Source: Paramecium tetraurelia
Lineage: Eukaryota; Ciliophora; Oligohymenophorea; Peniculida; Parameciidae
Assembly (NCBI RefSeq): GCF_000165425.1
Contig: NW_001799046.1
Coordinates: 1 to 64,000, forward strand
Length of the DNA stretch: 64,000 nt
Direction: 5' to 3'
The translations under genes and the position numbers were made by a program. The notes below the pieces were generated by a model. The model saw only the letters and a program-made list of their open reading frames with translations, had not been told where the DNA came from and searched no databases. How positions within the stretch are numbered: position 1 is the first letter of the stretch; each line of letters begins with the position of its first letter. This document shows positions 1 through 64,000 of this stretch, in pieces.

Positions 1-9
1 AAATTTTTA

Positions 10-1112: not shown

Positions 1113-4100
1113 TCAAATGATAAAATAGCCTAAAATAAATGTTAATGATGTTAGTATTAACCTTTAAGCCGTATTAGTATTATTATTATTTGTATCATTG
1201 ATTGTGTTATTGACATTACTACTTGGCTAATCTTATTTGGTACAAACTTAGCATTTATTTGTTGCGCTGTCCCATGTATATGCATATCCTGAAAGTCTAA
1301 AACAATCAGTTTAGTTTAATGTTGAAGGATCAGTGGCTCTACACATTCCATTAATCAAGGAACATAATTATTATGATTATTTATCCCAATTAAAGAATCT
1401 TGAACAAGTTCCACACAAGGCATTATTTGTAGCACAGGTATGACTTGTACATTTACTTGTAACATTAGAAGTTGCTGGACATCCATGAACATCTTATCTA
1501 TATGCTAGCTAAACAAGCAGTTTAGTCCTTATTTGCAGATGAACATAGAATTCATCAAAGTACAAGTCCCGCTATCAGTTATAGCTTTTGTAGAAGTTGA
1601 TTAATTAAATACACAAGGTCCATCTAATCCACCAAAATTACAAGCAGCTTTAGTTGTATAAGTTGAACATTTTGCCTTTGGGATACAAATAGTTCCATTT
1701 GAAAGACAAGATTGTAAAGCAGCTTGGCAAACACTAATTGATATTCCATTCTGAATATCTGCACAAGAAAGTAATCTACATTTGGCTGTATTATTATTTG
1801 TAGTAGAACCAACCTCCCAAAAGCAAATTCCATCATTTCCAACAGCTGTTGAACAAATAATTTAGGTAGAATAACTAGAACAATTTGTTTTAAGTAAACA
1901 TTTAGTACCATCTGAAGTACATGTTGATAATTAAGCAATTACAAATTGAATGAGTAACACCATTCAAATCAGAGCAAATTTAATCTCTACAACCACTTGT
2001 ACTCAAATCCCAAGTACAAACTCCTGTTGAAGTTATAACACCAGATTCAACTACAGATCCTTTATCATTTACCTAACATCCTGGTTAGGATTTATATGTT
2101 GAACATGCACCTAAAGGAATGCAACCCGTAGTTCCATCTGTTGTACATTTTTTATTAGCAATTTAACAATCTTTATGAGTTGCATAAAAGGCATCTGCAC
2201 ATGATTTAAATGGTTTACAAATCTTAGGATCAGAAGAATTCAAAGCAGGAGCAGATTAAATGCAAGATCCATCATAACCTGTAACACATCCACCATCAAT
2301 ATTTGTCTCAGTACATGTAGTAATTCCAATACAATTAGTTCCATTAGTTGTACATTTATTACTTATCAATTTACAAGATTCATCACTATTCCAAGCTAAA
2401 CTCTTGCATGATGTATATGCAAAACAAGCTCCTTTTGAACCATCACTATTGACAAACTTCTCAATCCATAAACACGGTCCATTTGTACCTTCAATACAAG
2501 CTTCTCTAATAGTAGTTGATTCACAACTTTATACTCTAGCACATCTACCATTTGGTCCAGCAGTACATTCTTATCTTTAAGTTTAACAAATGGCGTGAGT
2601 TGTTCCTATAAAATCTTGACAATCTTTATCTCTACACTTATTTAATGTATAATCCCATGCACATATTGTACCATTTAATGCAGTTATACAAGCTGCATTT
2701 ATAGTAGCAGCAGAACAACTTGATTTAGTAACACACCCACCTCCACTTTTTGTTGTACAATTTGTAAAATACTTTGCACAATCTACATCTGTTTATAAAC
2801 TAATTGGGGCAGTATTACATGTTTTAATTGTACAATATGCTGCAGTAATTACAACATTTTGAGAATTTACAACATCTGGTATCCATTCACAAGATTATCC
2901 AGTAGAAGATACAACACATCCTGCTTTATTTTAAGCTTAAACACAAGTTCCTCTGGTTACACAATTAATACCATTTGTTGTACAAGTAGATAAGGCCTAG
3001 TTGCATAGCTCATCTGTTTTTAAAGCATAATCTTCACAGATTTTTATTTTGCATTTTATAACATCTATTGTACATCCATATAAATAGTTATTGCATTATT
3101 CAGCAGTAGCTATTTCTTCAGGAGCATTTTCACAAGTTTTAGTAATACAATCTGATTTATTCCAATAACAAGGCTGTCCAGCACGATTGTAGCGACATTA
3201 TTGCTCATTCATTAACTCACAAATTTCTGGAATATCTATACATCCTTATCCATTTAAAGAAACCGTACATTTATTATTGAAATAGGCTTTGCATTTTGCA
3301 TCATTATCATATTCTGATGTGGCAGGAGCAGTAGAACAGGATTTATCATTGCATTCTTTTCCATTCCAACCACAAGGATCTCCAACATCATTTATTTTAC
3401 ATTATTCACTATGGATATAAGTTGAACAGGCTGCAGTTTATTAACATCCTCTTAAAATTGGTTATGCTCCATTGTCACCTGGACTAGCATACACCGTACA
3501 TCTAATAGTTGATCGTATTATAATAATTGAAGCAATCATTGTGAGTTAATATTGAAGTAGGAGCAGTTGTACATGACTTATCTTAACAAGCAGGTTCAGG
3601 TAAACTACTATTTGTATTCCAAGCACAATCTATTCTACTAGCATTAACTCTGCATTAATCCTCAATAGTATATGAACTACATGGTCCTCTTGCCATACAA
3701 CCAAGAACAGCTACCTTATTAACAGCTCTGACTGTACAAAGTAAATATTCATCAACTGTATAGCAGGCATTATGAGAATTAAATAAATTTGAAACTTCTA
3801 TATTTGCACAAACCAAATCTACACATGACTTAACAGTAGGATTCCAGTAACATTTTTTATCATTCATATCTAATTTACATTATAGTTATGTTTTATATAA
3901 TGAACAGGCAGTTCTGACTTGACATCCACCTGCTCTTGCAACTGTACAAGCCTATGAATAATTGGAGCATTCTGAATCATTATGAGAAGCATCTGATGGG
4001 GCTGTGTCACATCCTTTTCTAATGCAAATAGAATTAAACACTACACAAACTCCTTCTATTGCATTAAAACATATAGTTGATTTTTAATCGGAACATTTAG

Positions 4101-7100
4101 TAGCCATAATAATACAACCATTATTAGTCTAATTTACCGTGCAAGTTTTTAGCCAAGCAAAACAATTATCATGATTAAATATAAAACCTGTGGCATTTGC
4201 ACAAGTCCTAGCCATACATGCTGTACTTCCATTTACAGTACATCCAGCTTTGATTGTACTACAATTATCATGAGTATAATTGCCTGTTCCTAAAAATACT
4301 TTTTTCACAGGTAGAAGCACTTAAGGCAGGTACACATGCTGAATCATTACTAGTAGATGCAATACATAATCCTTCTCCTTGCTTGATAGCAACCACTCAT
4401 AGCAGTTGAATATGCAGAACATTATGCTGCTTTTTAAACACAAGCAGTCTTAGCTCTATTAACACTGCATCCCAAATTATATGATTAACATATTTCATAA
4501 GTTAATGATACACCTGTAATCTTAGCACAATCGGTAGAAACATTTAAAATAGTAATACAAGTGTTTGAATTATAGAGGTAGCATTTTGCATTTATAGATG
4601 AAGTACAAGATGCAGTTGTTCCTGAATATTATTCGCATGTTGACTTATAATCTTAACATTAAGTGCCATCATTTACTGAAGTACAACCTTTGTTATAAGA
4701 CTAACATATATTATGATTCAGATTAGCCCCAGTAATTTTACTACAAGTGGGACTTGTTATTTAGTAGCAAGAATTTTCATACCATAAACAGGAAGTACCA
4801 TTAGTTAATGCAACACATTAATTCTAAGTTGTATAATTCTTACAATTTGTCTAAGCATGTTAACATCCAGTACCATCCTTTAGATTAATACATTCACTAT
4901 TATATTATTAACACTTTGCAAGGTTGAGTCCTGTCTTTCCATTTACTAAGCTGCATTAAACTGAAGGATTTGAGAAATCATTGCAATTTGATGAGCCATC
5001 CCATATGCAACCTATAGGACAATTTTCTTTTAAAGTATAAGCTGAACAAGTGGATTTCTTTTCCTAACAAGCAGTTTCTGAATAGTTAACTGTGCAATTA
5101 GGATTATATAAAGCACATATATCTTTGGTCAGATTGATATCAGTTACATAAGCACAATGAGTAGTAACATTGGTGACAGTGATGCATGTCGAATACCATA
5201 AACAGTATCCTGCTGATCCAGAATCCTACGACCTAGTGCAATTTTCACTTTTTGTATAATCCGCACAACTGTTTTTCTTTTCTTAACAAGAGGTTCCTGC
5301 TTTATTGACTGTGCATCCATTGTTATAAGAAATACAAATATCATGAGTTAAATTTGTACCAACTACATATACACAGTCAGTAGTTACATCACTAATAGAA
5401 GTACAGCTAGATTTCCAAATGCATTTAGAACTTGAGGAAACAGAACATGAATCCTAATTTTGATAATCAGAACATGTGCTTTTTTTATCTTAACAGGCAG
5501 TCCCATTTTTATTTGATGTGCATGTAGAGCTATACCCAGAGCAATCGGAATCAGTCAAACCTGAAGATGCAGTAATGGCTGCACAATCAGTTAACAATTC
5601 TCTTGCAGTAACACATTTTGAATTGAAATAAAGACATACATTAAAAGGAGATGCAGCAGCTGAATATGTGCAAGAGTTTTCTGTTGTATAATTTGCACAA
5701 ATTGCATTTCTTTCTTGACAGCCAGAATAATCTGCTTTGACTGTGCAACCACTATGAAAAGATACACAAGTAGCATCGCTAAATTACTCGTTAGCAGGTT
5801 TCAAAATATTTGTACATTAAGTAGCAGGATCTGTAATTGTAGTGCATTATGAAGCCTTCCAAATACATCTAACTTTAGATTATGAATTTCCTGCATAACT
5901 ACACTTAGATATATCTGAGTATGATGTACAACTTGATAAAAGTTGTTAACACGCAGTTTTCTCAGCATTTGCAATGCAGCCAGCATTGAAAGTAGCACAA
6001 AAATTATCTGTTGTTGTAAAAGAGGGGTTTACAATAGCTACATTCTAGGTATCGCATTAACTGGCAGATGTTATTTAATAGCACACAGCATCTTTGCTCC
6101 AACCACAGAGTCCAGCATTTCCATTAGTTAAAGTTCTAATACAAGATTACGCTTTGTTAACATATTCTGCACAAGCAGATTTCATCTAATAGCAACTCTT
6201 CATGTTTGAAGTGGACCAGCATTCTTTAAGCAATCCATTGCAATAAGTACTAGTTAAATTAGTACCAGAAACTGAAGCACATTAATAAGGACTTGTTAAA
6301 AATATACATTTATTATCTATCCAAGCACAATAACCATCATTTAAAGATTTATAACAAGTTTTTGAATCTGAGTATTAATTACAATTTGATTGAATTTATT
6401 GACATCCAACTGCACTAAATTAAGGGATGCAAGAAGCATGATAATTAGCACATTATTAATCTGTAGCAAAAAGAGAGGTTAGGACCTTAGCACATTGATT
6501 AGCAGGGTCAGTCACATAAGTGCAATTCGAACCAGTCCATATACAAAATCCTGCCGTACCAGAAGCTAAAGATTATTAGCAATCACCTTCTATATCATAA
6601 TCTGAACAATTAGGCTTTTTTCCATAACAGCCATCTCTCGTTATTTTTGTTGTACATAATGGATTAATTGAAGGGCAATAACTGGCAGTTAAATCTGTTC
6701 CTGTAATATATTGGCACAGAGAACCAGATGTAAATGGTTAACAATGTGCCCCATCCCAAATACAACTTGCTGCTGTACCTAATGCTAAGGAAGTTGTACA
6801 ATACTATTCTTCTGTGTAAATACTACATGAACCTTATTTTATAAAGCATTCAGACCCATCTTTTTTAGCCGCAAAAGCCGGATTGAACTAGGCACATCTT
6901 GCACTTGACATTTAATTGTCCTTAATAGATCCAGCAATTGTAGCAAGTAATGTCATTATACTACAAATTCCATTATTCCATATACATTTTCCTGCTGTGT
7001 CAGCTGCCTATGATAGAGTACATGAACTTTTAGTGAAATATAAACCACATTAAGCTTTTTTCTCCTAACAGCCTGTCTTTTCGTAATTTACAGTGCAATT

Positions 7101-10100
7101 ATCATTATAAGTAGCACAAAATGAATCGGTCAGATTTGTTCCAGTTATGTAGGAACAATGAGTAGCAACAACTGTAAGTGCAATACAAGCTGTACCACTC
7201 CAAACACATTAGCTTTCTTTTAAGCTAGCTGCAGATACTGTGCATTATTCTTGAGATCGGTATAAAGCGCATGTAGCTCTCCTTTCTTAACATACTGTAT
7301 TTTATTTATTTACAGTGCAATTTATGTTATAGCCATTACATATTTAATGAGTAAGATTTGTTCCAGTAATTGAAGAGCAATTAGAAAAACGAATACAATC
7401 GGAACCATTTAAATAGCACTTACCTTATTACGACACTGTGCAATTAACAGTATTACCAGTATAAGCAGTGCAATTTTCTTTAAATTCTTAACACCCATTT
7501 CCATTACCTAAAGATGTACATGCAATATTGTATGCTTAACATTTAGCATGATCAAGTCCTGACCCACTTATAAGTGAGCATTCAGACGCTGAACTCACTG
7601 CTTAACAACTTGGTGGTGTGGCTTTATTCATGACACAATTTGCTTGTGTTCCAGTTGCATTTGATTTATAACAATTTGCTTCTGATGTCCCATATTCTGC
7701 ACATGTAGATTAAATTATAATACAACCACTACCATTCTTTTTAACAGAACAGGTTGGATCCACATTTTAGCAATCTTAGAATGTCAATCCACTTCCAATT
7801 TTTAAAGTGCAATCCAATGTACATGTAGTAAAACTTCTAGCATTGGCTTCATTTGTACATCCATCTCTATAAGCTTGACACATATCTTGTGTCCCTTTAA
7901 ATGTAGAACAAGTTCCTGTTGCTAATTCTGACAATGAGTAGCATATTCCATTTATCCATTTACAATCATCTAGACCTGTTAAATTTGATAAAGTCTAATG
8001 GCATTAACTGGAAATCTTGTAATTCGAACAAATTGGCTATTTTTGAACACACCCTTACCCTCCTATTTTTGCAATTATTGTGCATCTCTCATTTTGTGTG
8101 TTGTAATTAAGGCATTCTTTATCTGAATCAAAGAGGTCAGAATCCGGAGTGTCATCACAAATTGCATTTCTACAAAATGTTCCTGTCCAATAGCAATTTA
8201 AGGATGTAGAAGTAATTTTACAATTGTCTTAAATTTTATATGAAGAACAAGCAGAGGCTAAGGGAAAGCATGCTGTACCATCATCATTAACTGTGCATGA
8301 TTTTAATATTGTATTGCAATCATCATGTGTTGTTTATATTATATTTGTGCATAGCTTATCGACACAATTAGTTCCATTCCAAAGGCAATCGCCATCAACT
8401 TTAGTTTGATCTCCACAATTTTACTAGACTAAGAGTGAACAACTTGTGGGCTTAGCCATGCATCCATCTTAAGTGTTATTTTAGATGCAAGGATATACTA
8501 TTTTAGTACATTAGCCTAGATAATTATGGGAAACGCATAGAATCATGTACTTTTAACAATTCCTAAAAGTGAATTACCCATCTAAAATTGGATAATCTCC
8601 TGCATATTAGTTATATCCTCCCTTTATGTTTGCAGTTGTGCAAGATTGTTCAACACACATTTTAGCTAAAGGATCCCATAAACAGATTGGATATCCTAAG
8701 GGAGTAATATTGCAATTGTAGGGCGATTTTCTAGCTTCGCAAGTTTTAGGTAAATCTTAGCATCCTTAAATAGTTGAACTTCCATTTACTGTAATAGGAT
8801 CATTAGCCACACAAGGAAATAAATAAGCTAGACATTCGAATGTTTATGAAAGAGTTTTTGGAGCAGTAGAGCAAGTTCCATTAACACATTAAGATCCTGT
8901 CCAACCACAAGATTTTTTATTAGCCTTTATTTTGCAACGCAGCTTCGTATTGTAATTGCCTCACATTTGAGAGGTAATGTAACACATCCTTTTCCAGTAT
9001 TACTTAATGTGCAACTTTAATGATAAGCTTAGCATTCAGAATGAAATGTTTAGAGAAGTCGAAGCCATTGAACATTGTCTCTTATAACATCTAGCCCTCC
9101 AAATGCATGTATTGCTGTTTATATCTTTATTACAAGTTGATTAAGTTAATGAATTCTCACATGTTTTTTCTACACATCCTGTATTTGTAGAATTTACAGT
9201 ACAGGTATTCAAAAAAGATTAACAAAGTTCGTGACTATTATTACTATGAGGGAGCATTTACACAAATTTTGTCTTTGCAACTTCCACTTGCAACATGCCA
9301 AAAGCACCAGATTGCAGCCTAATGAATTTTTGATACAAGCAACTTCTATTGATATAAGTGAACAAGTGGTGTTTATTGTGCATCCACCTCCATTTTTGGT
9401 TATACATTTATTTGCAGGTAAATATGTTTCACATGCATCATTTGTATTCAATGTTATAGGAGCATTGTCACATGTTCTCTTCTGACATCCTCCTCCTGAT
9501 TAAACTGTACATGTTGATAAATAAGAAGTACATTAATCATGATTAAGTATTAGATTTTGGAGCATTTACACATGTTTTTTCTTTGCAAGTTAAATCCCCA
9601 AATACAATCGAAATTATTGATGTTTTTTAACACATGCAGTTGAAATATTAGCAGCAGAACAATCTCCATTAAGTACACAACCTCCCCCTTACTTAGTTAT
9701 GCATCCTTTTGAAAATGCAGCACAAACTGAATTAGTTGTTAATGTAGTTGGTGCATTTGAACATATTTTATCCACACATGTAGTTCCAGTCCAATAACAA
9801 TCTTCATTTGTACTATTTTTAATACATGCAGCTTATTATTGTAGCAACTTAACAGGTGGTTCTAGTGATACATCCACCATTTAGTTTTGTTGTACATGAT
9901 CCATCAGTTTTGAATAATTTACAAGAATCATCAGTATTTAAAGTAGTAGGTGCATTATCACATATTCTATCTTTACATTATGTTCCATTCCAATAACATT
10001 CCATTTTCATTGATTAATCCCAAACACATTAAATTTTACTAAAGACTTTAATTCACTACAATTAAATTCCACTATCAACACATCCAACCCTCCTGATTTT

Positions 10101-10677
10101 GCAGTACAACTTTGTATTTCATGTCTACATTCTTTATCTGTTTAAAATTTAATTGGTAGTTTATCACAAGTATCAGCATCAACACAATTATTATTTTTTG
10201 AATCCCAATAACATAAACTACCGAATAAGCATTTTACACAAGATTATTGTCTTTTATATTTATCACAAGTATCAATTTCAATACAATGAATTCCATCAGT
10301 AATACATCTATTACTAATAGCTTAGCAATCTGAATCTGTTGTTTTGTTAAATGCTGTGCAATCAGTGAAAAATGTACACTATCCTTCGACCCAAGCACAA
10401 GCAGAATACGATCCACAATTACTACATGGTTTTTACTTCGGACATTCCAATTCTTTAAAATTATCACAATATTTTGCATAGTTGATGACTGGATTAGTTG
10501 TTGTATCCTAATTTTTTACATGTCTTCTTAGTGTTATCCCATTAACATTTTTTTCATATCATTTTCTCTGCAATCGTCTTCTGAAAGCAATTAGGAACAA
10601 TCACATTAAGAAATACTATACTATTAGCCTGTTACAAGAGCAACCAATAGGGTCAGGATCACTACTTTGATAATCAT
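1113..10677 (-). CDS. Surface antigen gene A (PSA family, GPI-anchored)
   Basis: This is a giant cysteine-rich protein of the Paramecium surface antigen family, which coats the cell and cilia. The start codon at 10677 opens a signal peptide close to that of genes B-D (MIIKVVILTLLVALVTG). The body is made of cysteine-patterned repeats of about 65-75 residues, with C-x-NAP-TT-type and Gly-Gly-Cys motifs, and most glutamines are TAA or TAG. The C-terminus is Asn/Thr-rich and ends in a hydrophobic tail (RLILTSLTFILGYFII) before TGA, as expected for a GPI signal. It is the only copy on the minus strand and points toward the telomere. Several small frame differences from its paralogues occur, for example an extra A near 10550 and extra bases near 9600-9650. 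Family call is firm; whether the frame is truly intact is not known. Confidence 0.88.
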
Positions 10678-10939
10678 AAATAGTAATAGAGAATATTTAA
10701 TTATTTATTTTTGAACATTTAACTATGTTATATTTTTGGTCTACTTTGAATATATGTTTATTTATACAAATTCTTTGTACAAATATAAAATATCCAAATC
10801 AAACTCTCATCATTAATTAAATTAATGAGGATTCTGGCTTATAAGAACTATAGTATTACAAGATTCTGGTTGACAAGACAATAGTGTTAGAAGATTTTGG
10901 CTGACAAAACTATAGTATTAGAAGATTCTGGCTGACAGG
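10678..10939 (-). promoter_or_regulatory. Upstream control module of antigen A with palindrome
   Basis: The 17-base near-palindrome CATTAATTTAATTAATG (minus-strand reading) lies at 10811-10827, 133 bases before the start codon. The same element sits 132 bases before the starts of genes B, C and D. Between it and the start is a second shared block with CAAAAATATAACAT and TTCAAAAATAAATAAT. Upstream of the palindrome is the 31-base tandem repeat listed separately. Conservation at fixed spacing in otherwise diverged flanking DNA argues for a regulatory role; no binding protein can be inferred. Confidence 0.6.
10830..10939. repeat. 31-base tandem repeat, about 3.5 copies
   Basis: Units begin at 10830 (32 bases), 10862, 10893 and 10924 (partial). 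Each starts with GATTCTGG or GATTTTGG followed by CTGACA, TTGACA or a variant, then a TAGTATTA-like segment. The antigen-sense reading of the core is TGTCAGCCAGAATCTT. Genes B-D carry a shorter version of about 1.5 units at the matching place, so this looks like local amplification of a promoter module. Confidence 0.8.
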
Positions 10940-12572: not shown

Positions 12573-15500
12573 TCAATGCTTTCGCTTTTTTTATGGACAT
12601 TTATCTGCGACTCCTATTTTAACCATCTTAATGTTAGACAATAAGACCAGATAGGTACCATCAGGCTAAGGATCAAAAGAATAGATATTAAAGTCTGCAG
12701 AGGCAGGATAATAATTGTCTTTATTGAATTCCAATCTCATTTCATTTTAAATTTAACTACATTTATAATGGATAATACCTTTTTAAAACTTAATACTTAA
12801 TAACAAAGAGACCATTTTTGTCACTCTTTGTTTCAGTTTTTAAATCATTGTAAGTAATTCCATTCCATTATTTAAGTTTAATATTTACTCCTTCCAATCC
12901 CCTCCATACTAATGCACCATCACAATCAAATTCTGCCATCACTACACCACTAATCGAAGAGTATTGATAATATTTATTGAGCTATCCTTTGAATTCTGGA
13001 GTTACTTCAGCTTAAGTGGATACCTTTACAGTTCCACTATCTGGAGTAATATTGAACTTATGAGATGTTTATTTAAATTTTGCTGTTTCTTAAGTAATCA
13101 CTAAACATTAGACTTTCGAGTTAGAATTCATCAACATATCCCACTTTATTTAATACATACCAGCATTGTCAGTTTTAGTTCTGATATCTATTGGCCTATT
13201 ATCTTTTCCAAAACCATCACATTGCATAGACACTTGTATATTCGAAGGGGCTACTCCTCCTTCAGAAGTAAGTTCACCATCTACTTCAAATGGTAGATAA
13301 TCATCATAAAATTATTTTGGGAACATTAATTGAGATTTTTCATCATTTGTTTAAAATGGCAATGTAACCTTATGTATTTATCCAGTTGCATCTAAAAACT
13401 GTTCAGTTAATTAATATTTGACTCCAAATTACAGTTGATCATCTAGTAATTACCACTTTCCATCCTATCCAGTCTTAGCTTCATATTCTTTGGTAACTGG
13501 ATCTGAAATCAACTTAACTGATATTCCTGACTTTCCTTTGCCTTTTGGATCAACGATTTCTCCTCCTACTGTTAATTTAGTATTAACTGGAGTCAACTCT
13601 TACGTTACCTTAATGGGAGGTACTTAAATTTAAGGTCCATTACATTAAAATGAGATTTTGTCTGTTTTAGTGTCTTTATACTTGTCGGCTGTAACATCTA
13701 AAATAAAGGATCCCTCAGAGTTTTTGTAACAAGGTATTTGTAGATTAAATTTACCATTTGCATCAGTTTTTCCTGTTATTTTATTTTTCTCTGTTCCTTT
13801 AACAATGGGTTATAAGGATTCTACTGTTAATGTGGATACAGGAGAAGGCTTTCCTTAGGGATCAGTCAAAGATGATGATACTGTGGCCTATAAGATAATT
13901 CTATCTAAAGCAGCATCTTGAGTTATAGTTTAATCTTTATTTGTTGAAATTGCAATGCTAGGTGATTTAAAGGGAGTGAAGTCTGAATGAGTAATTTATA
14001 TGACTGCGTGATATGATTAGTCGAAGACAGCTCCAAAAGTTAAGGAATATTTTCCATTCTGGTCAGACTTAGTTTTAAGATTAGAAGCTAATGGATCTGA
14101 TGGATTTAAAACTATTTCAATATCTGCACCTTGAACATTCATAGTGATTCCACTTTTATCAGTTAATACTCCAGAGAAGGTTATTTGTGCTGTTTTGGTG
14201 ATAATCTATATAGGTTTGAGTTTGGCATCTTTTTCACCACAAGTAAAGACCTGAGGAGGCAAAGGTGATTTGGGAAAGGCATCTGAAACCATATCCAACT
14301 TTAAAGTCGTAGGCACTTGATTATAGCACTAAAATGGAATAGAAAACTCTCCTTTATTGGCTTATGCATATTTATTGTATAATTAAGCATTTTACATTTG
14401 TGGAATTGAACTTAGGATTTCAACTTTTGCATTTTCAACCGCCTTGTTTTTGGAATCAATCAAGGATCCACTTATTGTACAATCTATTATTACTCTCTTT
14501 AAAGTGATATCTAGATTGATGGTTTGTTTCTCTTCTTTGCCAATTAACTATATATTATTATTTGCATTCTGAAATTGTGGTTGTCCATCAACAATAATGG
14601 TTCCATCATAATTAATACCTCTTAGAAGCTCAATTGAAAATGTGAATGTTCCATCATTCGCACTTTTGATTTTTATTTATTAATTAGTGATTGGATCTTA
14701 TTATTTTAAGCTAAAACTCATTTGGATTCCTGGTAATTTTACTTCAATCTTAGTTTCATCAATCAATTTGCCATTTATTGTAAATAATGTTGTTAAGAAT
14801 TTACTTTTTATAGAGAATCCATTTACTTCGAAATTAGGAGGAATCAATTCAACTTTATATCCATTATCCTATATCACATCTTTTGGTTTAATTAGACAAA
14901 CAATTTTATCATCATGCTTAGCTAATACTTGAAATGATATATCCACATTTCCATTTTTATCAGTTGTAAAATCCTTATTAATTGGGCCTTTTGAATCCTT
15001 AAATCCTTAACAAATCAAATTGAGAGTCACTGGTTATGATAATGTACCTTTTTCCAAATCTATTTTCCCTTTGATCTTAGCATCTACCAAATCAATATAA
15101 TTAATATCTTATACTGACACTTTTTGATTATCACTTTATACTTAGAATTTCTATTCTATTTTCTAATTTTATTTATTAATATCTTAATATGAAATAATTG
15201 CTTTGTATTCTGTAATTGGATATATCTTTGGAACTGTTGCTGTCCATGTACCATCACTTTAAGTTTTTGTTGTCAATGTTTCACTTTCTGGTTCTGTAGT
15301 GATAGTAAGTGATAAATTGGCAACTGGTTTTCCATGAGGATCTATAACCTTACCTGCTAGAATGGCTTTGATTTCAATCTTCTATAAAGTCAATGTTATA
15401 GGATTTAATTCTATTTAAGGTGAGTCACATTTAAATTTAGAACTCTTGACTTTTTATTCTTCATATTATGGTATATCTATTTATAAAGAAACAATATATT

Positions 15501-18559: not shown

Positions 18560-18762
18560 ATTTTGAATTTAACAATATAAATTAATTATAAACTCTCAGC
18601 TGCTCTTTGTAAATAAACATTCAATGTATTTCTTCTTAAAATTCCATTATTTTTACTTTATCAGAAACCATAAGAATATTATAACAACTAATTTATCAAA
18701 AATAATTTAATTCACATTGGGATTATCAGTTCATATTAATTTCAATTATTCTTAGTCACAAA
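18560..18762. promoter_or_regulatory. Divergent promoter region
   Basis: These 203 bases separate the start codons of the minus-strand secreted-protein gene and the plus-strand UFD1-like gene, so they must hold both promoters. The sequence is AT-rich and no specific element stands out. Confidence 0.5.
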
Positions 18763-19667: not shown

Positions 19668-19720
19668 GTTCTTTATTATTAATTTGATAAGTATAAATAA
19701 TCAAATTCCTGTTATATTAA

Positions 19721-47100: not shown

Positions 47101-50100
47101 TTCAGTAAGTGATGGCACTTAATGTTAAGATTATAAGTCAACATGCGAATAGTATGTAGGAACAACTGAATCTTGTATTTAATCTGTAAATGGAAAATGC
47201 TACCTCTATAATTCAAATACTTGCATTACTATTTTAAATGTTTCTACCGATTGTGCTAAGATTACAGGTGTATCATTAACTTATGAAATATGTTAATCAT
47301 ATAATTTGGGATGCAGTGTTAATAGAGCCAAAACTGCTTGTGTTTAAAAAGCAGCTTAATGTTCTGGATATTCAACTGCTATGAGTGGTTGCTATCAAGC
47401 AGGAGAAGGATTATGTATTGCATCCAGTAGTAATGATTCAGCATGTGTGCCTGCCTCAAGTTCCTCTACCTGTGAAAACGTATTTTTAGGAACAGGCAAT
47501 TATACTCATGATAATTGTAGTACAATGAAAACTGGATGTACTGTAAATGGAAGTACAGGATGTATGGCTAGAACTTGTGCAAATGCCACAGGTTTTACAT
47601 TTAATCATGATAATTGTTATTCTTGGTTGAAAACTTGTACAGTAAATTAGACTAATAATGGTTGCACTATCATGACTGCCAAATGTTCAGATTAATCATC
47701 TACTTAATGTCTAAATGCAATAGAAGGAGTGTGTCTAGTGTTTAATTCTATTTGTATTAGAAAAGGATGTGATACAGCTCCATCAGATGCTTCTCATGAT
47801 GATGATACAGAATGTTCTAATTATTCATAGGCTTGTACAGTTGCAAGAGCAGGTGGATGTCAAGTAAGAACTGCATGTTCATTATATAAATCATCATTAT
47901 AATGTAAATTAGATATGAATGATAAAAAATGTTTCTGGAATCCTTCTGTTAAGACATGTGTTGATTTGGCTTGTGCAAATATAGAGGTTTCAAATTTATA
48001 TAATACTCATGCTAAATGCTTTGCAGTTGATTCAAATTTAGGTTGTACAGTCAGAGCACTTAATAAAGTAGTTGCTCCTGGTTGCATGGCAAGAGGACCA
48101 TGTAGTTCATATACTATTAAAGATTAATGCATAACTAATGCTAGTGGAATAGATTGTGCTTGGAATACAAGTAGTAGTTTACCTGAACCTGCTTGCTAGG
48201 ATAAGTCATGTACAACTGCTCCTAGCTCCACATTAACTCACAATGATTGCTTCAATTATTATAATACATCAACTATTAAATGTACTGTGTATGCTATTCC
48301 AGATGCTAATGGTGGATAACCAATTCTAAGAGGATGTTAATAAACTGCAGCCTGTTCAACTTATATTGATAGTGAGTAATGTAAAATAAATGCTGCTGGT
48401 GATCCTTGTGGATGGAATGGAAAAGAATGCAATGATAAATCTTGTTCCACTGCTCCTGCTACATCAGAATATGACGATAATACAAAATGTAGAGCTTATT
48501 TGAACAATCAATGCACAGTATCATCAGAAGGATAAGGTTGTATAGATATTCCAGAGAGTTGTGAGTCAATGAATTAGAAACAATGTTATTTCAATAGTAC
48601 TGGACAATCCTGTTATTGGACTGGAACAGAGTGTATTACTAAATCTTGTGAAAATGCTCCAATAGAAACAGCTACAGCTGAACAATGCAATAACTATTTA
48701 TATGGATGTACAATAGATGTTATAAAATGCAAAATTAAAATCTGCGAAGATTATGTTTTAACAACTGATGAACAATGTAGTTATGCGTTATCTACATGTA
48801 CTACAAATGGTGTTAATTGTGTTACCAGAGGAACATGTGTTTAAGCTTAAAATAAAGCTGGATGTGTTGTATCTTCTACTGGATAATCTTGTGAATGGAT
48901 ACCTGATGTCGTAAATTCTCAAAATGTTGTAACTACTGCAGCATATTGTACAATTAAAACTTGTAATACTGCCCCAATTAGTTTATAGACTGATGTAGAT
49001 TGTGGAAAGTATTTTACAAATTGTACAACTAAAAGTGGAGGAGGTTGTGTTACTAAATCAAGTTGTTCTGCTGCCTCTGTAAATGCTGCTTGTATAACTG
49101 CATTAAACGGTACAATATGTGTATGGGATAATACATTAAATAAATGTAGAGATAAAGATTGTTAAGATTTTATAGGAACAACTCACACCATTTGTTAAAC
49201 TTAAAGATAAGGATGTACTGCTGGACCTAATGGTAGATGTGCTAGAGTTTAAAGTTGTGAATTAACTACTATTAGAGAAGCTTGTATTGAAGGTACAAAT
49301 GGACCATGTTTATGGATTGAGAAGTTTGTCAATAATGATGGGTCAAAAGGAGCTTGTTTTGCATATACATCATGCAAGAGTTTAGCTTGGAATAGTGATG
49401 AATCTTGTAAATTAATAAGTAATAAATGTACAACTAATGGAACTAATTGTATTGGAATTACTACATGTACTGAGACAAATATTGATGGTGGATGTGTTAC
49501 AGGGTATGATGGATCTTGCATTTAATCTGTTCCTGCTTTGAATTCTTCTGATCCTAAGATTTGTAAACCATTTAAATCATGTGCAGATGCCTTTTATGCA
49601 ACTCATAAAGATTGTTAAATTGCTAATAAAAAATGTACAACAGATGGAACTACTGGTTGCATTCCTTTAGGTGCATGTTCAACTTATAAATCTTAACCAG
49701 GATGTTAGATAAATGATAAAGGATATGTAGTTGAATCTGGTGTTATAACTTCAACAGGTGTTTGTACTTGGGATATGAGTACAAGTGTTTGTAGAGATTA
49801 AATTTGCTCTGATTTGAATGGTGTTACTGATTCAATTTGTAATTCTTAATTATCAACATGTACTTCAGATGGTACTAAATGTTTACTTAAAACAAATTGT
49901 TCTAGTTATTATACCTAAGTTATTTGTTCATCAGCTGTTGGAAATGATGGACTTTGTTTTTGGGAAGTTGGTTCTGCTTCAAATAATAATACAGCCAAAT
50001 GTAGATTACTCTCTTGTGCTGATATTCAAAATGGAACATCCATTAGTATTTGTTAAGCTGCTTTACCATCATGCATTTCAAATGGAACTGTTTGTATCCC

Positions 50101-50650
50101 AAAGGCCAAATGTTCAACTTACACAACTAAAACAGCATGCAATTTTGGTGGATTAGATGGAATTTGTGTATTTACATAATCAACTTCTGCATAGGCTGTG
50201 CCTGATAGTGGAACTTGTTCTTTAATGAATTCATGTTCATCTCGCAAATAATGATTAAAGTGCTTGTGTAGCTGCATAAGATAGATGTTCATGGAGTCCT
50301 GCTAGTTCTAGTATTACAAGTATATGTACAAGTCATACATGTGGTACATATAATTAAGTGAGTGGAACTTGTTCAAGATTCTTTAATTGGGATAACATAA
50401 TCATAATAGATATGTTCTATGATTAATGGAATATGCAGAGCCACTATACACATCAACATTAATATAAAGTGATGTTCTTAAACTTTCAGGATACACATAT
50501 ACATGGAATAGTTAATCAAACAAATGCTAAGTTTGTACTAAAAAAGATTAGCCAAATGGTCCTATCAATAATACAATCAATTATACAAATAACTCTAATA
50601 CAGCTTAAGGGTTATTATTAACATTCATCTTAGGCTATTTGATGATTTGA
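41156..50650 (+). CDS. Surface antigen gene C (PSA family, GPI-anchored)
   Basis: This tandem paralogue of gene B has the same signal peptide, Cys-patterned repeats and C-terminal hydrophobic tail (GLLLTFILGYLMI). The first and last thirds are nearly identical to B, while the middle (about 44500-47000) differs clearly in residues, as in known antigen families where the central domain carries serotype specificity. Overall length equals about 3,165 codons. Small frame differences from B and D occur near 41278, 41435, 42022, 43165, 43965, 50245 and 50395, most being one extra base. Family call is firm; coding integrity is uncertain. Confidence 0.9.
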
Positions 50651-51250: not shown

Positions 51251-51289
51251 ATTAAAACAAAAAGAACGCCAGAAAAATTCAATAATTTA

Positions 51290-54200: not shown

Positions 54201-54796
54201 ATTCATCTAAGAAAATATATAATATTACTTTTATTAAAGCATAAAGAATAGCATTTGTGCAATTTGCAATTCAACAAATGGTTTTTTAAGTAATGGATAG
54301 AAGTTCGAATCATCTAACAAAACTAAAAGAATAAATGAAGGCTAGGATCAGTTGATGACATTATTTATCAAGATTAGAGTAAATGATGAAAGAGGAAGAA
54401 TGAAGGAATGGGATATTTAGATAATATGAGTTATAAAGAAGGAGAGAATACTTAAAATTAGTATAACGAGAAGTCAAAAGCAATAGTGGATGGTTACTAT
54501 ATATGTTTATTGTATTTTTATCAATCTACCATTGATTAGTTATGAATAATTGATGATAGTGCATCTAGATTGGGTATTACAATTAAGTAACTACGTAACT
54601 GTCAGCTAAGAGTCTACTCATTATGTTGTCTTGACAGCAAGAATGTTCATTAATTTAATTAATGATGAGGGTTGATTTCAATATTTAATTATGCTTAAGG
54701 CTATTGGAAAAATAACTATGTATTCCAATAAGACAAAAATATAACATTCTTGAATTATTCAAAAATAAATAATAAAATTATAATGAATTACTTTTT
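51290..54796. repeat. Antigen spacer repeat, copy 3 (before gene D)
   Basis: The same repeated blocks as copies 1 and 2 are present, without the 4.5 kb insert. Two plus-strand frames of 74 and 80 codons (51743-51967 and 52388-52630) lie in it. They have no counterpart open frames in the other copies, so I do not call them genes. Minus-strand coding-like patches are present but more decayed than in copy 1. Confidence 0.6.
54590..54796 (+). promoter_or_regulatory. Upstream control module of antigen D
   Basis: The palindrome at 54648-54664 ends 132 bases before the start codon, with GTCAGC and TTGACAGC blocks upstream, as in genes B and C. Confidence 0.65.
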
Positions 54797-57700
54797 ATGA
54801 ATATTAAAGTATTGATCCTGGCCTTATTGGTTGCTCTTATAACAAGCTAATAGTATAGTATTTCTTAATGTGATTGTTCCTAATTGTTATCAGAAGATGA
54901 TTGCTCAAAAAATGATATGATCAAATGTTAATGGGATAGCACAAAGAAGACATGTAAAAATTAGGATACAACAACTAATCCAGTTATAAACTATGCAAAA
55001 TATTGTGATAATTTTAAAGAAATGGAATGTCCAAAACAAAAACCATGTAGCAATTGTGGATCTTACTCTGCATGTGCTTGGGTCGATGGATAGTGTACAT
55101 TTTTTACAGATTGCACAGTATTTAATAAAACAACAGATTCAGATTGTTAAGCTATTAGTAATAAATGTATTACTGATGGAACTCATTGTGTTGAAATTGA
55201 TACTTGTGATAAATATAAAAAACAATAATCTTGTGTAAAAAACTTATAAGATAATTTATGTTATTGGGATACTAAAAATAATAATTGTGTTGATGCTGAT
55301 ACTTGTGATAAATTACCAATTAAATTTCAAACAGATAAAGAATGTAGACATGAAATACAAAGTTGTACTGCAAAATCAGGAGGTGGATGTATTGATAGTG
55401 GAATTAGTTGTACTGATTAAAATTTAGAAATTTAATGTGTTTGGGATTAATCAATGAAAATGGAATGTTATTGGAATGGAACATAATGTAAAGATAGAAT
55501 ATGTGATAATGCACCTACTACTTTAAATACTGATGATTCTTGTAAATTATTCAAAACTGATGGATCATGTACAACAAAACAAAATGGTGGATGTATCACT
55601 AGAACTACTTGTTAAGCTGCTACAATATAAGCTGCATGTATTAAAAATAGTACAAATGAAGATTGTTATTGGACTGGAACTGCATGTGTGGATAAAATAT
55701 GCTCAAATGCACCAACTACATTAACAACTAATTCAGCTTGTGTAGCATTTTCAAAAGCATGCATAACAAAGTAAGGAGGAGGTTGTGTACTTAATGGAGA
55801 TTGCTCAACTGCCAATATTTCAACTGCATGTGTTAAAAATCATCAATAAATTTTGATTGTATTTGGGAATTCAACTTGCAAAGAAAAAACATGTATAAAT
55901 GCTCCAAAATCTAATACTACTCATGATTAATGTACTTCTTATTTATCTTCTTGTACTGTGTAATCAGGAGGGGGATGTCAATAGAGAACATGTGACAATG
56001 CTCCTACAACATTGAATACAAATGATGCATGTGAAAAATATTTACCTGCAAATAAATGTATAACCAAAAATGGAGGTGGATGTACAATAAACACCACTTG
56101 TTCACTCATCTCAATAGAAGTTGCTTGTATCAAAAATTCATTTGGCTAACCTTGTTTTTGGCATGCTGCAAGTGGAAGTTGCAAAGACAAAATTTGTGCA
56201 AATGCTCCATCTAGTAATAATAATCACGAACTTTGTTAATCTTTTTTGAATACATGTACTGTGAATTCTACAAATACAGGATGTGTTGAAAAAACATGTG
56301 AGAATTCATTAACTTTATCAACTTGTGATAAAGATTTAAACAACAATATATGCATCTGGAAAGCAAGGTGTTATATGAAATCATGCGCAATGGCTTCAAA
56401 TTCAATAACATCTCATTCTGAATGTCAAACTTATTATTCAAGTTGTACATTAAGCAACACTGGAAAAGGATGTGTAACAATACCTCTGAAATGTGAAGCA
56501 ATTACAATAGAAGCTGCTTGCAAAATAAAAGCTAATAAATAATCTTGTGGTTGGACAGGATCTTAATGTCTTGATAAAGCTTGCAATACAGCTCCTAAAA
56601 CTATTTAAACAACTTCAGACTGTCAAACTTACTTATCATCTTGTGTGGCTAATAATCCAGTTACAGTAAATGGAACCTCAACTATTTAAGGATGCCAAGA
56701 TTTACCTAAGACTTGCGATGCTAGAAAATCATCTGAAAATTGTAATATCACAAGAGCAGCATTTCCCACCTGTTTTTGGGATTCTTCATCTAACAAATGC
56801 GTTGAAAAATCTTGTACAACTGCAAATTTATCAGGTTCACCAGGAGCACTTTCAAAAGGGTAATTCACATTTGATAATTGTTAAAGTTACATGAGCACAT
56901 GCACAACTACTAATGCTCAAGGTAGTTGTACTTAAACATCATATCCTTGCATTTCAAATAATAGTTAAGATGGATGTATGGTTAAGCCCACAAGTTGTTC
57001 ATAGTTAGTTTAGTAAAATTGTAAAGATGGATCTAAATCTAATGGTGATTGTTATTGGAATGGATCTAATTGTGTTGAAAAGATATGTTCTAATATTGTA
57101 TCAACAACACATAACGATTGCTATAATATATTCAATTAATGTACCGTCAATGATGATGGCACAGCATGTATACCATTAGCTTCTGCTTGCACTTCATATA
57201 AAATTTAAGAGAATTGTAAAATAGCATCTACATAAAAGAATTGTTATTGGACAGGAACAGTTTGTAGAAATGCAATTTGCGATGACACTCCAGATTCTGA
57301 TCTATTTGATTCAGATGAAGAATGTCTTAATATCAAACTCAGAATGAAACATGTACAATAATTGCAAAAAGTGGGAGCTTAAGGGTGTGTACAAAAATAA
57401 CCGGTTTGTTCAAATTACAAGACTTCCAGTTAATGTCACAAGACTTTATCAAATTTAAATGCTTAAGATGATTGTAAATGGATTAATGGAATATGTTATT
57501 CATTATCAACTTTTGCAACAGGACCTTGCTCTACATTTAAAGGAACACAAGATATATGCAAAGCTTATAGATAGGGATGTACAAATGTAGCTAATGCTAG
57601 TACTTCAACTGCATGTACTTTGGATTGTACTTTAAAAATTGGAAGTGGATTGACATTCTAAGATTGCTAAAATGTGGATCCAACTTGTTCGGTTAAAAAG

Positions 57701-60700
57701 GATGGTAGTGGTTGTATTGTAATTTAATCTACTTGTACAGGATATGGGACAACAGCTGCAAATTGTTATAAATCAAATTAAACTGGATCACAATCAAATT
57801 GTGTCATGAATAAAGCCACACCACCAAGTTGTTAATCAGTGAGTTCAGCATCTGATTGTGCACTTATAAGTGGATCAGGACTTGATCATGCCAAATGCTA
57901 AGCATTTAATATTGCTTGTACATCTTTAGGTAACGGAAGTGGGTGTTAAGAGTTTAAAGCAAATTGCACTTCTTATACTGGTAATACTGATAATTGCACA
58001 GTCTCTTAATAAGGACTATGCTTTTTAAGTGGTTTTGATTGTATTCGTTTTTATAATTGCTTTTCAATTACTGGAACAAACCTTACTCATGAAATATGTA
58101 TTGGCTATAGCACTGATTGCACAGTAAATAAATAAAAAACAGCATGTTAAGATATGAAAGCCACATGTGATTTATACCCATCCCAAGAATAATGCACAAT
58201 ATCTGCAGCTGAGTAAAAGGCAAGTTAATGTGCTTGGAGTGGAACAGCATGTCTTGCTGTTACAGTAGCTGCTACTCATTGTTCATACATAACTGGAACT
58301 TACTTGACCGATTCATTTTGTGCTACTTATAATGATAATTGCATAGTAAATTATAGAAAGAACGCTTGTTAGGAGAAAAAAGCTACATGTGATTTATACC
58401 CATCTCATGATTAATGTACAATATCTGCAGCTGAATCCAAAGAAAGTTAATGTATTTGGAGTGGAACAGCTTGCCTTGCAGTTACAGTAGTTGCTACTCA
58501 TTGTTCCTTAGTAACTGGAACAAATCTGACCGATTCATTTTGTGCTACCTACAATGATAATTGCACTGTAAATTACGAAAAGACTGCTTGTTAGGAGAAA
58601 AAAGCTTAATGTGGTTTATATTTAACTAAAAGCTCATGTACTCTATCATAGGCAGCTGATACAGCAGGAAAATGTATATGGAATAATGAAAGGTGTCGTA
58701 TTATGACATCACTTGCTACAATTGGTAAATCTGTTATAGGGGAAAAAATGAAAAATGCAAGATGTATAGAGATCAATCCAGCTTTGGCAGTTACAGTGTA
58801 TGGAGATGAATGCTTTGTAAAATAAACTTCATGTAGTATGTACACAATAGAAAAGTATTGTTCACATTCCTCAGCATCAGGTGCAGCAGCTAATTGTATT
58901 TGGGATGGTTCACATTGTTAAGCATTTACATCTAATTCTCTGTGCAAATATATTTAATTATGGGGTATGGTAGTAGATGAGACTTATTGTCCTTCAGTTA
59001 ATTCATAATGTATAGCAAATCTAGCCTTAGACGGCTGTTATGGAAAGAAGGCTAATTGTTCAGATTATGATACAAAAATTGAATGCTCATAATCTTTTGC
59101 TCCTGGAACAGCAGGATTTTGTATATGGACAGGTTCAATTTGCACTTATGTGAAAGACCCTTCGGTTGATTGTGCTAAAATTAACACCTCTATTAATACG
59201 ACAGAGATACTTTGTGCTAGCTATCATGCTTTTTGTATTCCTTACTTAGGTGAAAAGGGATGTCAATAGATTCAATCAAATTGTTCCTCATACATGAATA
59301 TTAAAAACTGTTATAAATCTTTGAATGACGGTTATTGTGCTTGGGTAAATAACAATTGTATACATATAACAAGTCCGAGTCAATGTGCTTCAGCTTCTGG
59401 TTCTAATTTGACTAGTACTTATTGCAATGGATTACATAAAGATTGCTGGGTGAATGCAGCAAAAGATAGTTGCTATTAGATGAAACAAACTTGTGCAGAA
59501 TACGATAGGGGATAATCAATTTGTATTAGATCATTAATCGATGGAAATGCTGGACTCTGTGCTTGGAACTCTGTTTCTGGGTGTTATTAAACAACATCTG
59601 CCAGTTAATGCGATACCTAGGATTTTGACGGTGTAAACCCCTCTTCTGGAACAACAGATGCCTATTGCGCTAATTTTAATGCTGGCTGCATTGCAAAATT
59701 AAACAAATTTGGTTGTTAAAAATTATTAACAAGTTGTTCAGACTACACATAAGATACATGTAATTATGCTAGAAATTCAGGAGCTAAAGATAGATGTATT
59801 TGGATGGATTCAAAATGCAGTAAGTTAACAGTTCCTGCTACTGAATGTTATAATATTGATAGTCCAACAGATAATTAACCGTTTAGCGATAATTATTGTG
59901 CATCTTATCATAGTGGTTGCACAGTCGGAAACGAATTTAATATCTGTCTAGAAAGAAAAGCAGTTTGTGAAGATTATACAACACAATTTTTTTGCTTTTA
60001 TTCAGCTGCCTCACCTCCTTTCAATGTATGTCTTTATATAAATTCTATTTGTGTTACTGCAAGAGATTTGTTAACTGATTGTGCTGCCATTACTGCATCT
60101 TCAGGTTTAACTGATTCCGATTGCTCTGGGTATAGCTCTACCTGCATATCAAATAAAGCTGGGACTGCTTGTTAAGATAAAAAAGACTAATGTTCTGATT
60201 ACCAAAATTAGGATTAATGTACTGTTTCCTCGAGTTCTAAATGCATTTGGAAATCTAGTTGTATTTCTGTTAGTGATGCAACTACTGACTGTGCATATGT
60301 AGTTGGTACAGATTTAACTCATGATATTTGTGCGTCTTATAACAATGGATGCACAGTAAATAAAACAGGAACCTCTTGTTAAGAGATGAAAAATACTTGT
60401 GCAGATTATACAAAAAGTGAAAATTGCACTAGGTTCCAAAATTTTGGGTCGGCAAGTTACTGTTTATGGCATTCTTCATGCATCTCTGTCACTAATCTTA
60501 CAACGGATTGTGCTTACATAACTGGTATAAATCTGACCAAAGATATATGTGCTTTATATCATAATAATTGCACAGTTAACTACTCAGGAACTGCTTGTTA
60601 GGAAAAGTAATCCAGTTGTTCAGATTATACTTTGAAAGAAAATTGTTTAGCAGGTAATTGCATATGGGATGAAGCATTAAAATGCATTTCTATATCAGAT

Positions 60701-63700
60701 CCTTCTACTTAATGCAGCTTAGTGAATGGAAAGACAGGACTCAACCTTGACATGTGTAAATAATGTCATAGTAAATGTATTAATCTAAAGGATGGTACTG
60801 CATGTTAACACGTCTAGACCGATTGTACCAAATATAAAACTTAGAATTCATGTGTTTCATTGGCTAATGGTATTTCCTGTTTATGGTATGAAGATTCCTG
60901 CTACCAAATAGCATATACTTCTTGTAGTTCCATCATTTAGACTAATCTAAATCATAATATATGTTATTCATATAACAAAGGCTGCACTTCAGTAAGTGGA
61001 TGGCACTTCATGCTAAGGTTATATGTCAACATGCGAATAGTATTCAGGAACGACTTAATCTTGTACTTAATCTGTAAATGGAAAATGCTACCTCTATAAT
61101 TCAAACAAATGTATTACTATTTTAAATACTTCTACCGATTGTGCTAAGATTACAGGTGTATCATTAACTTATGAAATTTGTTAATCATATAATTTGGGAT
61201 GTAGTGTTAATAGAGCTAAGACTGCTTGTGTTTAAAAAGCAGCATAATGTTCTGGATATTCAATTGCTATGGCTGGTTGCTATCAAGCAGGAGAAGGATT
61301 ATGTTTTGCATCTACTAGTAATGATTCAGCATGTGTGCCTGCTTCAAGTGCATCTACCTGTGAAAAAGTATTTTTAGGAACAGGCAATTATACTCATGAT
61401 AATTGTAGTGCAATCAAAACTGGATGTACTGTAAATGGAAGTACAGCATGTATGGCTAGAACTTGTGCAAATGCCACAGGTTTTACATTTAATCATGATA
61501 ATTGTTATTCTTGGTTGAAAACTTGTACAGTAAATTAGACTAATAATGGTTGCACTATCATGACTGCCAAATGTTCAGATTAATCATCTACTTAATGTCT
61601 AAATGCAATAGAGGGAGTGTGTTTAGTGTTTAATTCTATTTGTATTAGAAAAGGATGTGATACAGCTCCATCAGATGCTTCTCATGATGATGATACAGAA
61701 TGTTCTAATTATTCATAGGCTTGTACAGTTGCAAGAGCAGGTGGATGTCAAGTAAGAACTGCTTGTTCATTATATAAATCATCTCTATAATGTAAATTAG
61801 ATATGAATGATAAAAAATGTTTCTGGAATCCATCTGTTAAGACATGTGTTGATTTGGCTTGTGCAAATATAGAAGTTTCAAATTTATATAATACTCATGC
61901 TAAATGCTTTGCAGTTGATTCAAATCTAGGTTGTACAGTAAGAGCACTTAATAAAGTAGTTGCTCCTGGTTGCATGGCAAGAGGACCATGTAGTTCATAT
62001 ACTATTAAAGATTAATGCATAACTAATGCCATTGGAATAGATATGTGCTTGGAATACAAATAGTAGTTTACCTGAACCTGCTTGCTAGGACAAGTCATGT
62101 ACAACTGCTCCTAGTTCCACATTAACTCACAATGATTGGCTTCAATTATTATAATACACCAAGTAATCAAAATGTACAGTACATGCTATTCCAGATGCTA
62201 ATGGTGGATAACCAATTTTAAGAGGATGTTAATAAACTGGCTGGCTTGTTCAACTTATATTGATAGTGAGTAATGCAAAATAAATGATGTTGGAGATCCT
62301 TGTGGATGGAATGGAAAAGAATGTAATGATAAATCTTGTTCCACTGCTCCTGCAACATCAGAATATGATGATGATACAAAATGTAAAGCCTATTTCAACA
62401 ATAAATGTACAGTTTCATCAGATGGATAAGGATGTATAGATATTCCAGAGAGTTGTGAGTTAATGAATTAGAAACAATGTTATTACAATAGAACTGCACA
62501 ACCCTGTTATGTTATTGGACTGGAACAGAGTGTATAACTAAATCTTGTGAAAATGCTCCAATAGAAACAGCAACAGCTGAATAATGTAATAACTATTTAT
62601 ATGGATGTACAAAAGATATTATAAAATGCAAAATTAAAATCTGTGAAGATTATATTTTAACAACAGATGAACAATGTAGTTATGCGTTATCTACATGTAC
62701 AACAAATGGTATTAATTGTGTAACAAGAGGAACATGTGTTTAAGCTTAAAACAAAGCTGGATGTGTTGTATCTTCTACTGGATAATCTTGTGAATGGATA
62801 CCAGATGTCGTAGATTCTCAAAATGTTGTAACTACTGCAGCATATTGTACAATTAAAACTTGTAATACTGCCCCAATTAGTTTATAAACAGATGTAGATT
62901 GTGCAAAGTATTTTACAAATTGTACAACTAAAAGTGGAGGAGGTTGTGTTGCTAAATCAAGTTGTTCTGCTGCTTCTGTAAATGCTGCTTGTATAACTGC
63001 ATTAAATGGTACAATATGTGCATGGGATTATACATTAAATAAGTGTAGAGATAAAGACTGTTAAGATTTTATAGGAACAACTCACACCATTTGTTAAACT
63101 TAAAGATAAGGATGTACTGCTGGACCAAATGGTAGATGTGCTAGAGTTTAAAGTTGTGAATTAACTACTATTAGAGAAGCTTGTATTGAAGGCACAAATG
63201 GGCCTTGTTTATGGATTGAGAAGTTTGTCAATAATGATGGGTCAAAAGGAGCTTGTTTTGCATATACATCATGCAAGAGTTTAGCTTGGAATAGTGATGA
63301 ATCTTGTAAATTAATAAGTAATAAATGTACAACTAATGGAACTAATTGTATTGGAATTACTACATGTACTGAGACAAATATTGATGGTGGATGTGTTACA
63401 GGGTATGATGGATCTTGCATTTAATCTGTTCCTGCTTTGAATTCATCTGATCCTAAGATTTGTAAACCATTTAAATCATGTGCAGATGCCTTTTATGCAA
63501 CTCATAAAGATTGTTAAATTGCTAATAAAAAATGTACAACAGATGGAACTACGGGTTGCATTCCTTTAGGTGCATGTTCAACATACAAATCTTAACCAGG
63601 ATGTTAGATAAATGATAAAGGATCTGTAGTTGAATCTGGTGTTATAACTTCAACAGGTGTTTGTACATGGGATTTGAGTACAAGTTCATGTAGAGATTAA

Positions 63701-64000
63701 ATTTGCACTGATTTGAATGGTGTTACTCATGGAATTTGTAATTCTTAATTATCAACATGTACTTCAAATGGTACTAAATGTTTACTTAAAACAAATTGTT
63801 CTAGTTATTCAACCTAAATTATTTGTTCAACAGCTGTTGGAAATGATGGACTTTGCTTTTGGGAGGTTGGTTCTGCTTCAAATAATAATACAGCCAAATG
63901 TAGATTACTTTCTTGTGCTGATATTCAAAATGGAACATCTATTAGTGTTTGTTAAGCTGCTTTACCATCTTGCATTTCAAATGGAACTATTTGTATCCCA
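54797..64000 (+). CDS. Surface antigen gene D (PSA family), 3' end cut by window
   Basis: This is the third tandem plus-strand antigen, with the same signal peptide and repeat architecture as B and C. By alignment with gene B about 540 bases, including the GPI tail, lie beyond the window. Its central region has a 222-base tandem duplication absent from B and C. Frame differences against the paralogues occur near 55835-55865, 57335-57370, 61000, 62045, 62135, 62240 and 62515. Most are insertions; the pair near 57335-57370 compensate each other. Confidence 0.88.
58142..58585 (+). repeat. 222-base tandem duplication inside antigen D
   Basis: Two adjacent units (58142-58363 and 58364-58585) each encode one 74-residue Cys repeat running from a KATCDLYPS-type start to an AC-QEKK end. 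Genes B and C have a single equivalent unit. The period is a whole number of codons, so the frame is kept. This is direct evidence of repeat-unit expansion in the variable centre. Confidence 0.8.

Follow-up and report, generated by a model that had tools for sequence, protein, structure and literature searches.

A subtelomeric array of related surface antigen genes in Paramecium tetraurelia with evidence of sequence exchange among the copies

The stretch of DNA analyzed here, called the window, is the first 64,000 bases of Paramecium tetraurelia contig NW_001799046.1 (C93, 87,341 bp), in a genome assembly of 69.07 Mb and 231 contigs. It is ciliate macronuclear contig sequence that carries four copies, A to D, of one Paramecium surface antigen gene (PF01508, Paramecium_SA). 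The left end of C93 is a C4A2/C3A3 telomere repeat (positions 1..57), and at the right end no telomere was found. There is no open frame of 200 amino acids (aa) under table 11, the bacterial code, and there are many under ciliate code 6.

Copy A (1113..10677, minus strand) runs about 9.5 kb from its ATG at 10677 to the TGA that ends at 1113. It encodes an N-terminal leader and a C-terminal hydrophobic tail, and it is transcribed toward the telomere, from which its stop is 1.1 kb away. Copies B (23773..33271, from pairwise matches and start and stop mapping), C (41156..50650, with the stop placed by counting along the aligned 3' end), and D (54797..64546) are on the plus strand. The last 546 bases of D lie outside the window, which holds 54797..64000. 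A is 86-87% identical to B and to C over 9.8-9.9 kb, and B is 90% identical to C over 12.2 kb, far beyond chance. D contains an open frame of 2179 aa (54635-61171, plus strand) with 97 TAA and TAG codons, read as glutamine in the ciliate code, and a cysteine content of 10.8%. PF01508 matches this frame in 26 stretches (E=5e-235), and there are matches to the domain within A, B, and C as well. Each full copy has three to six CTVNxxGTxC-like motifs. An internal tandem repeat of 222 bp (74 codons; 2.3-2.7 units) is found in D at 58116..58719 on the plus strand.

The array continues beyond the window, and its likely size is at least six members. A fifth copy, E (minus strand, stop at 82364), is cut by the right end of C93. 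Its 5' part is on contig C116, and a sixth copy, F (minus strand), spans C116 and contig C32; PF01508 matches fall within E on C116 and within F on C32. C93 overlaps C116 (16.9 kb) with 99.3% identity over 1730 bp, and C116 overlaps C32 (268.8 kb) with 99.7% identity over 6570 bp, whereas long matches between different copies are only 82-92% identical. We infer from this sequence comparison that the three contigs join as the overlaps suggest. The layout is then telomere, A (minus), island 1, B (plus), spacer, C (plus), D (plus), island 2, E (minus), and F (minus), with A through E all on C93. A sequence-only reading of the window had described a subtelomeric array of four genes, one of them inverted; the orientations stand, while the count is too low. 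The same reading had ascribed a signal peptide to all copies and a glycosylphosphatidylinositol (GPI) tail to A, B, and C. By eye, each of the six copies has a hydrophobic leader, and a hydrophobic tail was seen in every copy but C. The tail of C was not found by a motif search, its frame being broken there; the 3' DNA of C nevertheless aligns. About 35 bases at the right end of C93 and 36 at the start of C32 mismatch the overlapping contig, and they are low-quality read tails left in the assembly.

The flanks shared by the copies differ upstream and downstream. About 2 kb of upstream DNA is common to B, C, and D (21513..23772, plus strand, before B). This block is also found on C116 before E, and 0.8-1.6 kb or more of the block is shared by E, on C116, and by F, on C32. 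Flanks had been said to be shared by all four copies of the window, which upstream is true of B, C, and D; A shares only about 160 bp upstream and, depending on the partner, 21-153 bp downstream with other copies. Directly upstream of A is a 31-bp tandem repeat of 3.5 units (10830..10937), which the upstream stretches aligned for B-F lack. On the downstream side D and E have a common flank, and the flanks of B, C, and F are alike. The copies are thus grouped differently on the two sides, so that the upstream and downstream flanks point to different histories. The duplicated blocks of B and C are separated by about 4.6 kb (34.06-38.64 kb).

A short upstream element may be a regulatory site private to this family. 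The longest run invariant in all six upstream stretches is TCATTAATTTAATTAATGATGAG, a near-palindrome of 23 bp located about 130-150 bp before the ATG. When alignment columns were shuffled, an invariant run this long appeared in 115 of 20000 trials. In copy A the near-palindromic, invariant element CATTAATTTAATTAATGATGAG lies at 10806..10827 on the minus strand, and on the plus strand it lies at 23624..23645 in B, 41007..41028 in C, and 54648..54669 in D. The 20-base core with at most one mismatch has six matches in the genome, one before each copy, and a reversed control has one match.

The distribution of differences along the gene supports recombination or gene conversion among the copies, the inverted copy A included. 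Divergence between A and B at four-fold degenerate sites ranges from 2% (columns 900-1500) up to 34% (columns 2100-2700). Given such strong variation at silent sites, protein constraint does not by itself explain the changes. Two alignments were used, one of five rows and one of eight, whose column numbers differ by about 16 near column 6200. In the five-row alignment, informative sites that favour the same topology for A-D lie in clusters (permutation p=0.0005). A groups with B in a run of 14 sites at columns 5636-5892 and in one of 11 sites at 6124-6307, and at columns 7727-8421 a run of 22 sites places A with D and B with C. In the approximately unbiased (AU) test, the N-terminal data and the C-terminal data each reject the central maximum-likelihood tree (p 3e-8 or less), and the central data reject the trees of both ends (p 5e-7 or less). 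The trees of columns 5600-6350 and 7700-8450 are each rejected by the other's data (p 0.0011 or less). All 15 quartets that can be drawn from the six copies are clustered (p=0.002 each, 500 shuffles). In its centre, A mostly joins F over columns 4644-5320 of the eight-row alignment and B over columns 5636-6307 of the five-row alignment. In the N- and C-terminal parts no copy diverges more than A. The exchange of sequence that had been proposed for this cluster is therefore upheld by the silent divergence and by the conflict of the central tree with those of both ends, in addition to the quartets.

Selection also varies along the gene. Over the six copies the mean ratio of nonsynonymous to synonymous divergence (dN/dS) is 0.36 in the N-terminal region (bootstrap interval 0.30-0.42), 0.77 and 0.63 in two central blocks (0.62-1.01 and 0.46-0.87), and 0.28 in the C-terminal region (0.23-0.33). 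Of the 15 pairs, 3 in the first central block and 2 in the second have dN above dS; at either end no pair does. Among codons in these four regions, 250 of 256 for cysteine and 1573 of 2380 for other amino acids are invariant across the six copies; the regions lie outside columns 3400-3900, 5000-5560, and 6300-6900. So the ends of the gene are under purifying selection, the centre is relaxed or mixed, and the cysteine pattern is kept throughout.

Every copy has several frame breaks, mostly of 1-2 nucleotides (nt), and the eight-row alignment contains 93 events of frame-breaking length. Breaks private to one copy among A-E comprise 60 insertions versus 3 deletions, with 2 more shared, when the hypervariable columns 5130-5520 are left out. 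Single-base insertions account for 46 of the 60, and 28 of these adjoin an identical base. In A-D the private insertions amount to about one per kb of consensus (41 in about 38 kb). Private in-frame indels in A-E are balanced (9 insertions, 7 deletions), and indels of 1-2 nt in the B/C/D upstream alignment comprise 19 insertions and 25 deletions. Where the same DNA was read by a second contig, 20 of the 22 breaks private to E or F are absent from that reading; they are 17 insertions and 3 deletions, one deletion being at the extreme end of C93. The other two, together with two gaps common to E and B, are pieces of a gap at columns 5332-5346 in a hypervariable block. Only 2 of 1228 private substitutions create in-frame stops, where a neutral rate of 2.4% would give about 29. 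A majority-column reading is open for 2,935 or 2,947 codons, depending on the analysis. The lack of reproduction, the insertion bias, the rarity of in-frame stops, and the dN/dS values of 0.28-0.77 suggest consensus errors rather than pseudogenes. The breaks are best read, from the sequence comparison, as mostly errors of the consensus that are concentrated in repeats, and this reading is extended to A-D.

Two other causes of the breaks were rejected. A model allowing GT..AG introns of 18-39 nt put different introns in each copy, within conserved coding sequence, and the small private insertions seen near the breaks in the alignment further rule out this reading. Programmed frameshifting is rejected on the grounds that nearly every break is confined to a single copy and that those within the overlaps are not reproduced.

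Taken jointly, the results probably describe an isogene family with six or more members, located at a single end of a macronuclear chromosome, with intact genes, an alpha-type copy A, ectopic exchange among the copies, and a serotype set by control of expression. Under this reading genes A-F would be intact in the cell. A, which adjoins the telomere and is transcribed toward it, would be the expressible copy, and B-F would be isogenes, either silent or conditional. In the germline, ectopic gene conversion or unequal exchange could maintain the similarity of the N- and C-terminal parts as the centre diversifies. Control of expression, through telomere position and RNA interference (RNAi), would decide which serotype is made, with no rearrangement of DNA.

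Several observations weigh against this interpretation. Three single-base events outside the overlaps are shared by two copies (A and C, A and D, and a gap in C and F). The bodies of A-D are read by one contig only, so the error reading applies there by extension. The majority-column reading holds four stops in one analysis and eight in the other. Seven of the eight are at codon positions up to 277 and one is at position 3225 of 3237, near the end of the gene; that alignment begins upstream of the ATG, so its first 280 codon positions include upstream sequence. The inner stops are taken as off-frame reading at tied columns because the frame of D itself is open there. Conversion could also make dead copies look constrained. 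The N- and C-terminal trees fail to reject each other (AU p 0.29 and 0.08), and the differing topologies suggested earlier for the N-terminal, central, and C-terminal parts are found between the centre and the ends and not between the two ends. In the centre B is the most divergent copy, not A. The two islands lie in the opposite order in a duplicate region on contig C38, which may reflect a rearrangement mediated by the antigen genes or a mis-assembly. Finally, we infer from its position that A is the active copy.

The shared breaks, and the fact that every assembled copy is frame-broken, would be expected if the breaks were real and the array a non-functional graveyard of pseudogenes. Non-expressed isogenes that possibly diverge fast, and an under-amplified G pseudogene in P. 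primaurelia, are mentioned in PMC9788069. This explanation is very unlikely given the 20 of 22 private breaks that are not reproduced in doubly read DNA, the insertion bias that has no like in the flanks, the shortage of in-frame stops, and a dN/dS below 1 with nearly all cysteine codons invariant. In addition, two genes from the islands on this contig can be aligned to their paralogues without a change of frame, over 1417 and 709 aa. The pseudogene reading is mostly refuted where E and F were read twice. Errors of another kind, in which reads from different copies were mixed or wrongly joined, could have produced the mosaic or the order of the array. Mismatching contig ends, the rate of private insertions in A-D, the island order on C38, and the interstitial or head-to-head telomere repeats on two other contigs (C28 and C51) are consistent with this. 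For A, B, C, D, and most of E there is a single reading. The clustering of the quartet A, D, E, F persists (p=0.0005) on columns where the two contigs that cover F agree, which makes it unlikely that the mosaic is wholly an artefact, and the contig overlaps are clearly more alike than the long matches between copies. Such an assembly artefact is unlikely overall.

A further alternative is a telomeric expression site in which antigen change occurs by copying donor segments of B-F into A, as in trypanosomes. A lies at a telomere with its own upstream flank, and its centre groups with F in one part and with B in another, as expected for a mosaic recipient. Against this, mosaics also occur among B-F (five of five quartets without A), and the available part of PMC4535620 places serotype change under epigenetic control of expression. 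Segmental mosaics among copies are necessary for recombinational switching of this kind and not sufficient, and the alternative is highly improbable here. The antigen switching by conversion that had been envisaged for this cluster found nothing in its support, while serotype change is tied to expression control (PMC9788069; PMC4535620, in the part available). A bolder, quite doubtful idea suggested by the sequence is that A might be rewritten repeatedly by ectopic conversion from silent B-F, on top of epigenetic switching, with the 23-bp element marking the cassette. If so, a free-living ciliate would make new antigens by recombination between donors and a recipient.

In the features compared, the locus fits a known kind, a subtelomeric alpha-like gene with intrachromosomal isogenes. 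There are 548 putative antigens in six Paramecium species, and isogene families are intrachromosomal duplicates younger than the last genome duplication (PMC9788069). According to the same paper, expressed antigen genes are subtelomeric, and alpha genes lie apart from isogenes in most of the families shown. The mechanism and origin of isogene duplication are called unknown there, and exclusive expression, in which RNAi is involved, hardly understood mechanistically. The array resembles the D/J, B/S, and H families of P. tetraurelia and P. primaurelia (PMC9788069) in its giant cysteine-rich antigens, its duplicates within one chromosome, a single subtelomeric copy that stands apart, a loss of synteny where the duplicates lie, and CTVNxxGTxC-like motifs. 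It differs in its coding span of about 9.5-9.75 kb, compared with a published average of 6.6 kb, and in having direct and inverted copies together. In the parts available of the respective papers, serotypes are described as epigenetically controlled, with a telomere position effect that does not spread to neighbours (PMC4535620), and as linked with small-RNA clusters (PMC6735861). Likewise, the available part of PMC11334263 reports widespread gene conversion between whole-genome duplicates and states that next to nothing is known of recombination or gene conversion inside Paramecium chromosomes. A test for conversion between antigen isogenes of Paramecium was not found in PMC9788069 or in the available text of PMC11334263, with subscription literature outside this coverage. 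Though ordinary in kind, the locus is informative in its particulars, a six-member array with good evidence of sequence exchange and with an upstream element private to the family. With its direct and inverted copies, mosaic tracts, private element, and a counterpart region on C38 with no antigen match in a 39.7-kb stretch, the locus allows the origin of Paramecium antigen isogenes to be tested. It also carries a warning, in that duplicated antigen genes look broken in the assembly and probably are not.

Similar gene arrangements occur in parasites. The variant surface glycoprotein (VSG) repertoire of Trypanosoma brucei consists of subtelomeric surface-coat genes with segmental mosaicism, and the var genes of Plasmodium are clustered subtelomeric surface antigen genes in both orientations. 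The present array is like the VSG genes, to which PMC9788069 devotes one sentence, in its subtelomeric surface-coat genes and segmental mosaics, and unlike them in belonging to a free-living ciliate, in its few copies, and in having no sign of recombination-driven switching. It is like the var genes (PMC9788069, introduction) in its clustered subtelomeric antigen genes of both orientations, while the proteins are unrelated.

The two island genes examined are not strictly single-copy, as had been thought of the genes between the inverted and the direct copies; they have relatives on C38, C8, and other contigs. Island 1 includes a 1417-aa open frame (12745..16995, minus strand) with carboxypeptidase regulatory-like (CarboxypepD_reg) and collagen-repeat matches and with relatives on C38 and C8. 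A tandem repeat of 9/18/45 bp lies within this gene at 16140-16298. The wider region 12745-18479 on the minus strand has carboxypeptidase-regulatory-like, collagen-repeat, and weak Big_1, SpaA, and MG4 matches, so that a large possible surface protein stands beside the array. A gene for a UFD1-like protein (533-aa open frame, 18217..19815, plus strand) is also located between A and B, and on C38 it has only short matches. The duplicates on C38 are at 224.9-229.0 kb for island 2 genes and 234.3-241.8 kb for island 1 genes, and they probably stem from a whole-genome duplication. One island 2 protein is 86% identical to its C38 counterpart over 709 aa, and protein searches with two further island 2 proteins gave no match on C38. 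The long frame of D has no antigen match in C38:222001-261706 (39.7 kb, E up to 1e-3).

A survey of antigen genes elsewhere in the genome scored 150 of 1370 candidates and is not exhaustive. On C10 and C179, as with A, there are antigen genes directed toward a telomere at the end of the contig, and others lie far inside contigs. Clusters with both orientations are found on C51 (33-39, 175-181, 188-194, and 203-209 kb) and on C179 (303-308, 334, 414-420, and 451-458 kb), showing that arrays of mixed orientation are not peculiar to this locus. Telomere repeats also occur inside contigs, head to head at C28:252024-252452 and interstitially at C51:16432-16515; in this assembly they indicate either that chromosome ends were joined or that telomeres have alternative sites.

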